Of a DNA stretch of 64,000 bases, positions 43,493-48,447 are shown piece by piece (positions within the stretch are counted from its first letter, which is position 1; each line of letters begins with the position of its first letter). The notes beneath the pieces were generated by a model. The model was not told where the DNA came from. It searched no databases and was given only the letters and a program-made list of their open reading frames with translations. The position numbers were made by a program, and so were the translations under genes. Origin of the DNA: Planctomycetota bacterium (GTDB lineage Bacteria > Planctomycetota > UBA1135 > GCA-002686595); assembly GCA_014237855.1 (NCBI GenBank), contig JABACD010000013.1:1-64000 (forward strand). The letters run 5' to 3'.

Positions 43493-43726
43493 ATGACACG
43501 ACTCAGCGAACTGAACCCTGGTAGCTCCGCCGCCCTCCTCGAGGTCGGTGGGGATCGATCCTTTCGCCGACGCCTGATGGAACTCGGACTCCTCCCGGGA
43601 ACCCAGCTCAGGCTGGTCCGTCGTGTTGCCATTGGCGACCTGCTCGAACTCGAAGTTCGTGGCTGCCACCTGAGCTTGCGCTGTTGCGACGCCCACCACC
43701 TCATGGTGGATGGAATCCGCGGCTGA
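43493..43726 (+). CDS. feoA: ferrous iron transport protein FeoA
   Basis: 77 residues, an SH3-like FeoA domain: LLEVGGDRSFRRRLMELGLLPGTQLRLVRRVAIGDLLELEVRGCHLSLR. FeoA is a small cytoplasmic partner of FeoB. Overlaps feoB by 17 bp. Two adjacent Cys (RCCDAHH) near the end are unusual. Confidence 0.92.
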   Translation: MTRLSELNPGSSAALLEVGGDRSFRRRLMELGLLPGTQLRLVRRVAIGDLLELEVRGCHLSLRCCDAHHLMVDGIRG

Positions 43727-45953
43727 ACGCTCTGCACACCTTTCTATTGTGACGCCCGAAATGGTGACGGGGCTCTCGAGAGTCGCATTGGCAGGTAATC
43801 CCAATGCCGGCAAGACCTCCATCTTCAACTGGCTGACGGGCAGCTCTCAGAAGGTCGGAAATTATCCCGGGGTCACCGTAGAACGGCACACTGGTCGACT
43901 CGAACTGCCTTCGGGGTCCGAAGTAGAGATCTATGACACCCCCGGCACCTACAGCCTCTCTGCTCGAAGTGCCGAGGAGCAGATAGCAAGCCAGGCAATC
44001 GTAGGCCTCTCCCCTCTCCCTGCTCCAGATCTGGTTGTTGTCGTAGTTGATGCGACCCAGCTCCTTCGCAACCTGTACCTGACCTTACAGGTCGTTGAAA
44101 CGGGGACCCCAATTGTCGTCGCCCTCACCATGGTCGACCTCCTTGAACGGTCCGGGCAAACCATCGATGTCGGTCACCTCGAGAGCACCCTGGGTATCCC
44201 AGTCGTTCCCGTCTCGGGACTGACCGGCGGAGGTATCGACCAGCTGAAGAAGGCCGCCGGGGAGGCTCTATCAAGAGCAACTGAGTCCAAAGATGGCCCT
44301 CTCTGGCCGCCCTCTCCCGAACTCGAGGCCGACGTCTCCGCAGTCGCTGACAAGCTTCCAGAGGAATGGACGAGAGACACCTCTTCGCGTCGTCGAGCTC
44401 TGGCCCTCTGGGCACTGCTCTCGATTGACGAGGAAGATGAGCTGGTGGGGATAGCACCCGAGCTAAGGGAGTCTGTCGACTCCCGTCGTCAGCTCGCCGC
44501 CGTCGAGGGCCGAGACATCGAGGCAGAGATAATCAGCGCTCGCTACGCCTGGATCGACCTGCACTGCTCGCCCGCCCTGAGCACACCTGATGAACCCCGG
44601 ACAAGCCTCACCGGGCGCCTGGACTCACTGCTCTTGCATCCAGTCTCAGGGTTCGCGCTCTTTCTCCTGACCATGGGCCTGGTTTTCCAGTCCCTCTTCA
44701 GCTGGGCCGATCCCGCTATCGGCCTGGTCGAGTCAGCCTTCAATGGCCTCTCAAGCGGTGTGATCGCAGTCATGCCGGAGGGAATCCTGCGCGACTTCAT
44801 CACCGAAGGATTGATCGCAGGCGTCGGCGGGGTCGTCGTGTTCCTCCCACAGATTCTCCTGCTGTTCTTCTTCATCGGACTGATGGAGGACAGTGGCTAC
44901 ATGGCCAGAGTCGCCTTCCTCATGGATCGCTTGATGAAGTCCATCGGCCTCCATGGTCGGGCCTTCGTTCCGATGCTGAGTGGGTTTGCCTGCGCGGTTC
45001 CGGCAATCCTGGCCACCCGTACGATGGAGAGGCGCCGCGACCGCATGATCACCATGATGGTCGTCCCCTTGATGAGTTGTTCCGCACGACTCCCTGTCTA
45101 CACGCTCCTCATCGCAGCCCTCTACGACACGGAGTCAAAGGTGCTTGGCTTCCTGCCGGTGCAGAGCCTGCTCATGGTAGCCATGTACCTGTTCAGCACC
45201 ATCATCGCGCTTGTCGCTGCCGCGATCCTGGGAAAGACAGTCTTCAAGGGTCCGCAGGTGCCACTGATCCTGGAGCTCCCCCCCTACCGCATGCCCCAGC
45301 TCCGCAGCGTCATCCGAATGATGATGTCGAGAGCCGGCGTCTTCCTCAGGGAAGCAGGTGGGGTCATCCTGGTCTGCACGGTTGTCCTCTGGGGCCTGCT
45401 CTCCTTCCCCAAGCAGCCAACCCTCGACACTGATTATTCGGCAATGCGAATTCAAATCGAGCGGGAGGTGATGGGCGACGAACTACAGTCCGAGCTCCTT
45501 CGCATTGACAACCTCGAAGCGGGAGAGATCTTCCGCAAGAGCTACGGGGCTCGACTCGGACAGTCCATCGAGCCCGTGATCGAGCCCCTCGGATTTGACT
45601 GGAAGATCGGCATCGGCTTGATTGGCGCCTTTGCTGCCCGAGAGGTCTTCGTCAGCACCATGGGCATCGTCTACGGAGTCAGCGACGAGGTAGATGAGGG
45701 GTCGGAGTCTCTTCGTGAGCGCATTCGCAACGAGAAGTGGGCGGACGGCCGTACCGTCTACACCCCACTCGTTGGGCTCTCCCTGATGGTCTTCATCGCC
45801 CTGGCCTGCCAGTGCATGAGCACACTTGCCGCGGTCTACCGCGAGACAAACAGCTGGAGGTGGCCCGTGTTCATGTTTGTCTACATGACCAGCCTGGCCT
45901 GGATCGGCAGCCTGATCATCTATCAGGGCGGCCGCTGGATCGGGTTCGACTAG
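43710..45953 (+). CDS. feoB: ferrous iron transporter FeoB
   Basis: 747 residues from 43710; an in-frame ATG at 43761 would place the G1 motif nearer the N-terminus, as in most FeoBs. G domain: G1 GNPNAGKTSIFN, switch I GNYPGVTVE, G3 DTPGTYSL. The G4 motif, usually NxxD, reads TMVD. An all-helical insert with a basic stretch follows. The membrane part has two Gate regions (GFACAVPAILATRTMERRRDRMITMMVVPLMSCSARLPVY, and LVGAFAAREVFVSTMGIVYG) and about eight helices. GTP-driven Fe2+ import across the inner membrane. Ends head-on with dsbD. Confidence 0.95.
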   Translation: MESAAERSAHLSIVTPEMVTGLSRVALAGNPNAGKTSIFNWLTGSSQKVGNYPGVTVERHTGRLELPSGSEVEIYDTPGTYSLSARSAEEQIASQAIVGLSPLPAPDLVVVVVDATQLLRNLYLTLQVVETGTPIVVALTMVDLLERSGQTIDVGHLESTLGIPVVPVSGLTGGGIDQLKKAAGEALSRATESKDGPLWPPSPELEADVSAVADKLPEEWTRDTSSRRRALALWALLSIDEEDELVGIAPELRESVDSRRQLAAVEGRDIEAEIISARYAWIDLHCSPALSTPDEPRTSLTGRLDSLLLHPVSGFALFLLTMGLVFQSLFSWADPAIGLVESAFNGLSSGVIAVMPEGILRDFITEGLIAGVGGVVVFLPQILLLFFFIGLMEDSGYMARVAFLMDRLMKSIGLHGRAFVPMLSGFACAVPAILATRTMERRRDRMITMMVVPLMSCSARLPVYTLLIAALYDTESKVLGFLPVQSLLMVAMYLFSTIIALVAAAILGKTVFKGPQVPLILELPPYRMPQLRSVIRMMMSRAGVFLREAGGVILVCTVVLWGLLSFPKQPTLDTDYSAMRIQIEREVMGDELQSELLRIDNLEAGEIFRKSYGARLGQSIEPVIEPLGFDWKIGIGLIGAFAAREVFVSTMGIVYGVSDEVDEGSESLRERIRNEKWADGRTVYTPLVGLSLMVFIALACQCMSTLAAVYRETNSWRWPVFMFVYMTSLAWIGSLIIYQGGRWIGFD

Positions 45954-45990: not shown

Positions 45991-48447
45991 CTACCAGTCA
46001 GCCTCCCACTTCTCGTAGGCTCCACCGAGCCAGCGGGCGAAGCTCTTCGGATCCAGGTCAGGCCCTCCCTTCATGTCGACCAGGTCCCCTGTCACGGGGT
46101 CGATCACTGCATAGGAAGGAGTTGCCAGGGTCTTGATCAGGCTATCCTGCCAGGCCCGCACCTCATCCTGGTTCTCACCATCGTTGTGAATGCGTGCCTC
46201 GACAAAGTCCTTCATGATTCCGGCGACCGCCGGGGCAGGGAACACCTTTTGTTCCATCTGCCTGCAGGCCGGTCACAAGAAGCCCGTGAAGTTGATCAAC
46301 ACTGGCTTGCCCTGTGTTTCCGCTGAAGCGAGAGCACCCTCATAGTCGTCGGTGATGATCTCGTGTTGCTCGGGCCGCGAGGCGTCAAACGAACCACCCC
46401 CTCCGCCATGTGCTCCCGCACCCTGCGCCGACGAGTAGTTCGGAATGATGGCCGTCATGATCGAATCCATCGAGTGGCCGCTGTACCCATGGAGGCAGTA
46501 GGCAGTCATTCCAAGAAAGAAGATCGCCGACATCATTCGGCCCGCAGATATCTCGCTTACCGCGTAGCCCTTGATCTTGATCCAGCCCAGGAGGTAGATA
46601 CCCGCGAGCAAGAAGATCAACGCCCACAGCAGCAGGAACAGCTCGCGGGAGATGAAGCCCCACCCGTAACGCAGGTCCACGTTGGAGAAGAACTTCAGAG
46701 CTGCGGCCAGCTCGATGAACCCCAGGCTGACCTTGAGCGTGTTCATCCACTCACCACTGGAGGGCATGGCCTGTAGCCTGCCCGGAACCAGCGAGAGAAT
46801 CGTGAATGGGACGGCCATGGTCATCCCGAAGACGCCCATCCCCAGGGTGATCTCCCAGATGCTGCGCCCCTCTGCTGCCGATGCGGACAAGAGCGTGCCC
46901 ACGAAGGGTGCTGTGCAGGTAAAGGAGGTCAGCACTAACGTCATCCCCATCAAGAAGACTCCGAGGAGGCCTCCTGTCGTGCTGGCCTTGCCAGCCATGT
47001 TCATCAGCGCCTGAGGTGGATTCATGGTGATCACACCAAACAAGGCCGCAGCAAAGATCACGAAGATCGAGCCCATCACCAGGTTGGTGATCGGGTGAGT
47101 CGCGAAGGGCATGATCAACGACCCGACCGTGAGGGCAATCGCTACAAAGATCAGGACGATGCCGGCACCGTACATCAACGAGAGCGTCAGCACCTTTCCA
47201 CCTCGAGCCTCGGCCTGCTTCGTGAAGAAGGAGATCGTGATCGGAATCATCGGGTAGGTGCAGGGCATCAGCAGGGCAAAAATCCCCCCGCCAATCGCGC
47301 CGAGAATCAGGGTCAGCAGCCCGCTCTTCTCGTCCTCATCCTCGTCTTGGTTCTCGCTGTCCTGCGAGGGCGCCGTGTTGGCAAATGCCTGGTCCCAGTC
47401 GCCCTCGGGGTAGCTGGCCCAGACCTCAGCAGGGCCTGACCCCACGGAGGTGATCGTGGAGGCGTACTGAAGGCAAACGCCGGAGTCCTCGCATGTTTGG
47501 CCGCGCAAGCTGGCGCTCACATGCGGTTCGGTTATCCCCGGCTTCAGCTCTCCCTGGCCATAGATTGTGATCTGGCCCTCGTGCCCAAGAATGAAGGTGT
47601 CACCGCCGTCCGCGGCCAGCCCCTCCTGCACGTACTTGTGGGGCTCTGGCCACAAGAGCTCCTTGAACTGCGCTACCTCTCCCTCGAGTTCGATCCTCGT
47701 CGGTAAGCCGATTGAGTCGGGCGCGCCCAGCTCGTGATGGTAGAGGTGCCAGCCACCTTCGATATCAATGGTGATGGCGAGCTGAAGTGCGTCGTCCTCA
47801 ACCCGGGTGTAGAGAGTCGCCCTGGCCTTGTCGTCGTCGTTGGTAGGTTCGGGCTCCGCTCCCTCCCCTGTTCCGAAGCCCGCTTCCTCCCCCATGGAGA
47901 ACCCGGCATCCAACCCGGATTCTTGTTCGACCTCCTCGACCAGGCCAAAAGCCTCGTCCGGGTAGTTCGCGAACAGCTGATCATCACCCTTGCCCGATGA
48001 CTTGATCGACTCGTTGTAGGGGTAGCAGGCACCACTGTCCTCACAGGTCAGGCCACTCAGCTTGACGCTCAGGGTCGGCGTGGCCCCATCGGTGATGGCC
48101 CCGTGCCCGAAGAGCACCAGCTCCTCCTCATGCCCCAGGATGAAGGTGTCCCTACCGTCATCTCCCAGCTCTGGCTGCTCATACCGGTGCGGGTCTGGCC
48201 AGTGAAGTTCATCCAGCTCTGCGTCGCCGCTGACGCTCACCGTCAGGGGCTTGCCCACGGCATCCGGTGCTCCCAGCTCATGGTGATAGAGGTGGAAGCC
48301 CTCGTCGATCTCGATCTGGATCGCAAACCGCAGGTCGGTGCCTTCGGTTCGGGTGAAGAGCTTGGCGCTGGCCTTTGCCGCCTGGCCCGTGGCCGCGGGG
48401 GCCAGGGTGGCGACAGCCGCAAGGAGGAGTAGGGAGGTCCGGTTCAT
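45991..48447 (-). CDS. dsbD: thiol:disulfide interchange protein DsbD, probable selenoprotein (UGA = Sec725)
   Basis: Read through one TGA, the frame gives 818 residues. A signal peptide (MNRTSLLLLAAVATLAPAATGQA) precedes two repeated DsbD-alpha-like domains (residues about 25-170 and 195-335), each with FHLYHHELGAPD/WHLYHHELGAPD and a TCEDSG loop. Next come a CcdA-like membrane domain of eight helices with its two cysteines (LLMPCTYPMIPI, LTSFTCTAPFVG) and a C-terminal thioredoxin domain. Its active site is NFTGFL-U-PAC-RQMEQKVF, with TGA at 46275-46273 in place of the first Cys of CxxC, and a cis-Pro TPSYAVID follows. Typical relatives read FTGxxCxxCRxME there. A SECIS-like hairpin follows at the right distance. 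It passes electrons to periplasmic or outer thiol proteins. A nonsense mutation is the alternative. Confidence 0.85.
46234..46262 (-). promoter_or_regulatory. candidate bacterial SECIS element in dsbD mRNA
   Basis: Starting 10 bases after the UGA, the RNA folds as GGCAG-(AU bulge)-GGAAC-[AAAAGGU]-GUUCC-CUGCC: ten Watson-Crick pairs, a U bulged next to the upper stem, and a GGU in the apical loop 26 bases from the UGA. E. coli fdhF has the same plan: bulged U, apical GGU, 18 bases from UGA. It lies wholly inside coding sequence, as bacterial SECIS do. Confidence 0.75.
46273..46275 (-). other. in-frame UGA read as selenocysteine
   Basis: TGA in frame between FTGFL and PACRQMEQKVF, at the position of the first active-site Cys of the DsbD thioredoxin domain. 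Homology continues unbroken for 93 residues after it, to a normal stop at 45991-45993. Confidence 0.82.

Follow-up and report, generated by a model that had tools for sequence, protein, structure and literature searches.

A dsbD gene from a draft planctomycete genome very probably encodes a functional DsbD whose gamma domain carries a Sec-x-x-Cys pair, the in-frame UGA at codon 725 being decoded as selenocysteine (Sec) through SelB and Sec-tRNA(Sec) with the help of a predicted GGUC-loop SECIS inside the gene. The gene lies in the 64,000 nt stretch of contig JABACD010000013.1 that was analysed here (the window), and its minus-strand frame runs from an ATG at 48447 to a TAG at 45991. As an earlier sequence-only reading of the window had described, this frame is open throughout except for a single TGA, which replaces the first cysteine of the thioredoxin-domain CxxC motif. 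The Sec reading of this codon is strongly supported by genomic and comparative evidence, and about a hundred related genes of the same phylum appear to use Sec likewise. The features of the gene are collected in Table 1.

Table 1. Features of the Sec-dsbD locus, with window coordinates; RNA positions count the U of the UGA as 1.
Feature	Coordinates	Strand	Description and basis
dsbD	45991..48447	minus	818 codons plus stop; predicted Sec-containing protein-disulfide reductase DsbD; frame, Pfam, AlphaFold
First DsbD_N (alpha, Ig-like) domain	48010..48351	minus	Residues 33-146, C135-x5-C141; Pfam, Foldseek match 6dnv (DsbD N-domain)
Second DsbD_N domain	47419..47826	minus	About residues 208-343, C319-x5-C325; two Pfam stretches, repeated strands in AlphaFold model
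CcdA-type transmembrane (beta) domain	46483..47343	minus	About residues 369-655, C396 and C511; DsbD_TM 72.7 bits, CcdA 5vkv
Thioredoxin-fold (gamma) domain	45997..46362	minus	Residues 696-817, cis-Pro P777; Thioredoxin_7, DsbD gamma 1uc7/2fwe/7aye (sequence)
In-frame UGA, codon 725	46273..46275	minus	FTGFL-U-PAC-RQMEQ; predicted to be read as Sec; corresponds to E. coli DsbD Cys461
Resolving Cys728 of UxxC motif	46264..46266	minus	Cys in 123/123 representatives
Hairpin A, possible spacer	46239..46255	minus	Positions 21-37; pairing above synonymous null, weak covariation
Hairpin B, predicted SECIS	46220..46233	minus	Positions 43-56, CCGGC-GGUC-GCCGG, GGUC apical loop; loop conservation, covariation

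The Pfam models follow each other in the product in the order DsbD_N (two stretches), DsbD_TM and Thioredoxin_7, all above their cut-offs, which agrees with the N-domain duplication and with the thioredoxin homology running through the TGA to a normal stop that had been proposed from sequence alone. By sequence, the C-terminal domain aligns to DsbD gamma structures, the Cys that opens the E. coli CVAC motif standing opposite codon 725. An AlphaFold model built from 28 aligned relatives reached a mean pLDDT of 81, and of about 90 in the thioredoxin domain, with the active-site helix starting at residue 725. In Foldseek searches, the gamma domain of this model matched 2fwh (DsbD gamma; TM 0.73 of the target), while the top structural match of the second DsbD_N domain was the N-terminal region of ScsB (6c29). 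All three redox pair types of DsbD are present, namely the alpha C-x5-C, the two membrane cysteines and the gamma pair, here as UxxC. Across the 28 aligned relatives all eight redox positions (C135/C141, C319/C325, C396, C511, U725 and C728) are kept; the cis-proline P777 is invariant, as are all seven redox cysteines, C728 among them, none of which is replaced by Sec in this set. The NCBIfam DsbD model PRK00293 scored 127 bits, below its cut-off of 330, so that the protein is best described as a divergent DsbD outside NCBI's narrower DsbD group. A six-frame search found only this one DsbD in the genome, and no Cys-containing backup is therefore apparent. Both tandem N-domains retain an intact C-x5-C, and many relatives align to one of the two only. 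Downstream, feoB, encoding a ferrous iron transporter (43710-45953), is convergent with dsbD, an arrangement that recurs at L054, L064, L068 and L071 and not at L080, hence at four of the five loci from relatives that were compared.

The genome, a draft of 5.3 Mb in 111 contigs with an estimated completeness of 94%, encodes the complete set of Sec genes to which the sequence-only reading had pointed. Both selA (476 bits) and selB (339 bits against a cut-off of 242) were found, together with selD (321 bits) and a tRNA-Sec scoring 74.7 bits against an Rfam cut-off of 47, which has a UCA anticodon (TCA in the gene) and was typed as tRNA-Sec by ARAGORN as well. The selD gene contains an in-frame TGA of its own (ADCAG-U-AAK), and UxxK is the site of the known selenoprotein SelD (PMC13188914). 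On contig C15, selD lies about 1.7 kb from the tRNA-Sec gene, with selA and selB located on other contigs. Among relatives, selA was detected in 58 of 60 genomes (59 of 61 including the window genome). In a sample of 392 Planctomycetota genomes it accompanied Sec-DsbD in 85 of 89 cases, compared with 157 of the 303 other genomes, a difference that is confounded by relatedness and is taken as supporting evidence only. Two of the four Sec-DsbD assemblies in which selA was not seen are 67-77% complete, the other two about 90%. Over the whole sample selA occurs in 242 of 392 genomes (239 above the cut-off), and Sec use in Planctomycetota thus seems far more frequent than one would gather from the handful of genomes in one planctomycete paper.

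Six-frame searches of the 60 relatives and then of the 392 genomes across the phylum revealed that the UGA-containing dsbD arrangement is widespread in both, and it was also recovered from many Planctomycetota assemblies when a collection of named genomes was searched independently. The aligned codon was compared in 171 homologous loci, almost all from Planctomycetota and some representing one genome under two names: it is TGA (130), TGC (31) or TGT (10) and nothing else, just the alternation of U and C that the earlier reading had proposed to look for in homologues. Removal of near-identical sequences left 94 representatives with Sec and 29 with Cys. Relatives carry either U or C at this site and have an intact downstream domain, and the decayed second half that would be expected of a lost gene was not seen. 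Elsewhere in the aligned frames there are three TGAs, all at or beyond the gene end. Three genomes (G069, G325 and G300) were left out of the TGA count, since their TGA serves as the regular stop codon of a permuted Cys-DsbD. In this permuted form (L181, L182, L183 and L187; family f17) a thioredoxin domain with the motif TGPSCxNC sits between the N-terminal and membrane domains, so that the membrane domain ends the protein; the stop is TGA in three of the four (L181-L183). Two Sec-DsbD genes, L115 and L106, each contain one in-frame TAG besides the TGA.

These data bear on three other ways of reading the TGA. A draft assembly in 111 contigs and a codon one base away from TGC would be compatible with a base-call error or a chance nonsense mutation in a recent pseudogene, yet the same TGA in more than 90 distinct sequences rules out an error of base calling, and the restriction of the aligned codon to TGA, TGC and TGT excludes chance, as the sequence-only reading had argued from the precise position of the codon. 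With the downstream domain intact, other TGAs confined to the gene ends and an RNA element specific to TGA genes (see below), we regard this explanation as having a negligible probability. It is very unlikely, if a little less so, that the UGA is the true stop of a shorter DsbD, with the thioredoxin part arising as a separate product or through leaky readthrough that inserts Cys or Trp. An ATG (M731) six codons 3' of the UGA could serve a separate product, but a protein starting there would be without its active site; moreover, codon 725 admits nothing other than Cys or UGA, and the genome holds both the Sec machinery and a SECIS-like hairpin. That UGA is a sense codon genome-wide, or is read as Cys by an altered tRNA, would fit the Cys found at this position in homologues. 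However, TGA terminates 19 of the 39 long open reading frames within the window and is therefore not a reassigned sense codon, and the tRNA with a UCA anticodon is a tRNA-Sec by both assignments given above, which leaves hardly any probability for this alternative either. We thus continue with the reading of codon 725 as Sec.

While its assignment of Sec is supported, the sequence-only reading had missed the spread of the gene through the phylum as well as an RNA element downstream of the UGA. Hairpin B, the predicted SECIS, has a GGUC apical loop, and hairpins with this loop were found in 52 of 61 non-redundant close Sec genes (in 46 of those with GGUC at position 48), compared with none of 29 Cys genes. 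A coding-sequence null, in which the same proteins were encoded by random synonymous codons, gave a mean of 7.3 and a maximum of 14 such hairpins for the 61 genes. All five base pairs of hairpin B vary on both sides, with a covariation score of 0.42 against 0.13 after shuffling in 26 sequences, which were chosen for GGUC at position 48, a choice that fixes the loop and not the stem. Pairing in hairpin A likewise exceeds the synonymous null in the close Sec genes (z 6.5) and shows no such excess in the Cys genes; its covariation is weak and its loop sequence variable. More distant Sec genes have hairpins with GU-containing loops at varied positions in 24 of 33 cases (null mean 5.9, maximum 10), compared with 2 of 29 Cys genes (null 1.8). 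The exact GGUC loop is absent from 9 of the 61 close and 26 of the 33 distant Sec genes.

A published model of bacterial SECIS elements requires a loop of 3-9 nt with an early G, mostly followed by G or U, and a distance of 16-37 nt between UGA and loop (PMC13188914). Hairpin B, whose loop opens with two Gs, accords with this loop rule, and it shares with the consensus a small apical loop starting with G, a GG/GU core and a stem of at least 4 bp. Its GGUC loop, however, lies 44 nt past the UGA and so outside that range, and hairpin A intervenes. In selD of the same genome, GGUC lies in the loop of a 7-bp hairpin at +36, within the range, and several relatives have it at +36 likewise. In the E. 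coli SECIS, two loop nucleotides, G23 and U24, are important, as is a bulged U17 (PMC8659212); a bulged U of this kind was not seen in hairpin B. The Rfam model SECIS_1 (RF00031) found no match in the genome, nor did it in control genomes, and is uninformative here. At its energy minimum, the isolated RNA of this gene prefers a long stem that hides the GGUC. We considered this stem, which pairs positions 4-14 with 44-53, as a candidate element and rejected it: it exceeds the synonymous null (z 8.9), but shows zero covariation, and its 3' side overlaps hairpin B.

Sec might still be inserted with hairpin A or the long stem providing the SelB-binding loop and hairpin B serving another role, such as translation pausing. 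Hairpin A has its loop starting 23 nt past the UGA, inside the published range, and the isolated RNA does fold into the long stem. Nevertheless, we judge this unlikely, because the loop of hairpin A varies in sequence, whereas GGUC is conserved on a covarying stem and recurs in selD; furthermore, distant Sec genes place their GU loops elsewhere, and the long stem lacks covariation. This alternative concerns the SECIS assignment only. Keeping hairpin B as the putative SECIS, we propose that it binds SelB, that SelB and Sec-tRNA(Sec) decode UGA 725 under its direction, and that hairpin A probably shortens the path from UGA to loop, of which 27 nt would remain once its 17 nt are discounted. By analogy to E. 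coli DsbD, the electrons would come from cytoplasmic thioredoxin and pass to C396/C511 in the membrane domain, which would in turn reduce the Se-S bond of Sec725/Cys728; this pair would then reduce the disulfides of the two N-domains, which would serve periplasmic partners.

On a FastTree tree of the family, the Sec and Cys states require at least 12 changes, below all of 500 shuffles (mean 33.6), and Cys clades are nested several times in Sec-rich clades. We tentatively take this to point to an old Sec form that gave way to Cys repeatedly. Nothing was seen outside Planctomycetota, where the search covered 388 genomes of a single phylum, that of an Opitutales record; these yielded one match only, which contained no stop and ended short of codon 725. 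Residue -6 (Asn719, at the place of E. coli Asp455) was considered as an adaptation to Sec and rejected, since the choice between N and D/E tracks lineage and not Sec versus Cys; within the close clade Asn is almost universal, among Sec and Cys forms alike. Jointly, we think it reasonably probable, though with far less assurance than for Sec itself, that the GU-core hairpin 44 nt past the UGA and its spacer hairpin constitute a distinct Planctomycetota SECIS arrangement in dsbD, and that Sec-DsbD is old in the phylum, its Cys forms having arisen from Sec several times.

The protein shares domain order, redox positions and gamma fold with E. coli DsbD (1uc7, 2fwe; PMC3961690), from which it differs by Sec in place of Cys461, by a second N-domain and, in this clade, by Asn719 in place of Asp455. 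ScsB (6c29), the best structural match, is a DsbD relative that also has an extended N-terminal region; unlike in ScsB, both N-domains keep their C-x5-C here. We know of no Sec form of ScsB. UxxC proteins have previously been filed under cd02953, which we take to be the DsbD gamma family, and Sec in a DsbD-gamma-like domain is hence already on record. These are 22 GOS sequences of a 2008 ocean survey (PMC2398784), and a "thiol:disulfide interchange" or Trx-like 2 selenoprotein was described in the Deltaproteobacteria Geobacter and Syntrophus (PMC1794560). No full DsbD appears among the 119 prokaryotic selenoprotein families inventoried in 2026, which do include a "thiol:disulfide interchange protein" (PF13098, UxxC, WP_011366075.1) and TsoB, a rhodanese/DsbD fusion with two Sec residues in a UxxxxU motif (PMC13188914). 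The former shares the UxxC in a thioredoxin-like domain, whereas the papers on it describe neither a full-length alpha-beta-gamma architecture nor members from Planctomycetota nor a family-wide SECIS; our gamma domain scored 23.8 bits against PF13098 (cut-off 27) and is better matched by Thioredoxin_7. TsoB (NF045694) has the DsbD transmembrane region in common, at 134.6 bits over residues 362-649, far from the cut-off of 805 bits and limited to the membrane domain, and a rhodanese domain was not found. Planctomycete selenoproteins have been reported earlier in a paper whose main text names no Dsb protein (PMC4807772). We found no report of a full-length Sec-DsbD, its spread in Planctomycetota or the dsbD hairpin in the open-access literature. 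The sequence-only reading had overlooked the earlier DsbD-gamma-like selenoprotein family; judged by the same literature, the full-length Sec-DsbD, which that reading did not recognise as known, would be new, as would its spread through Planctomycetota and the covarying hairpin after the UGA.

The Cys461 of E. coli DsbD has a pKa of 10.6, the highest reported for a CxxC of the thioredoxin family, which is thought to prevent wasteful reoxidation, and lowering this pKa renders the gamma domain more prone to reoxidation (PMC3961690). Sec at this position throughout a phylum would contradict the picture of protection by a high pKa. As Sec is normally ionised at neutral pH, the Sec-DsbD family would have to tolerate or exploit a reactive nucleophile. 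Standard annotation would truncate these genes at the UGA, and the dsbD hairpin may provide a defined case for a SECIS beyond the accepted spacing range. DsbD is the hub from which both the repair of periplasmic disulfides and the maturation of cytochrome c draw electrons; if our reading is true, a core pathway of the cell envelope would be tied to selenium in many uncultured bacteria.
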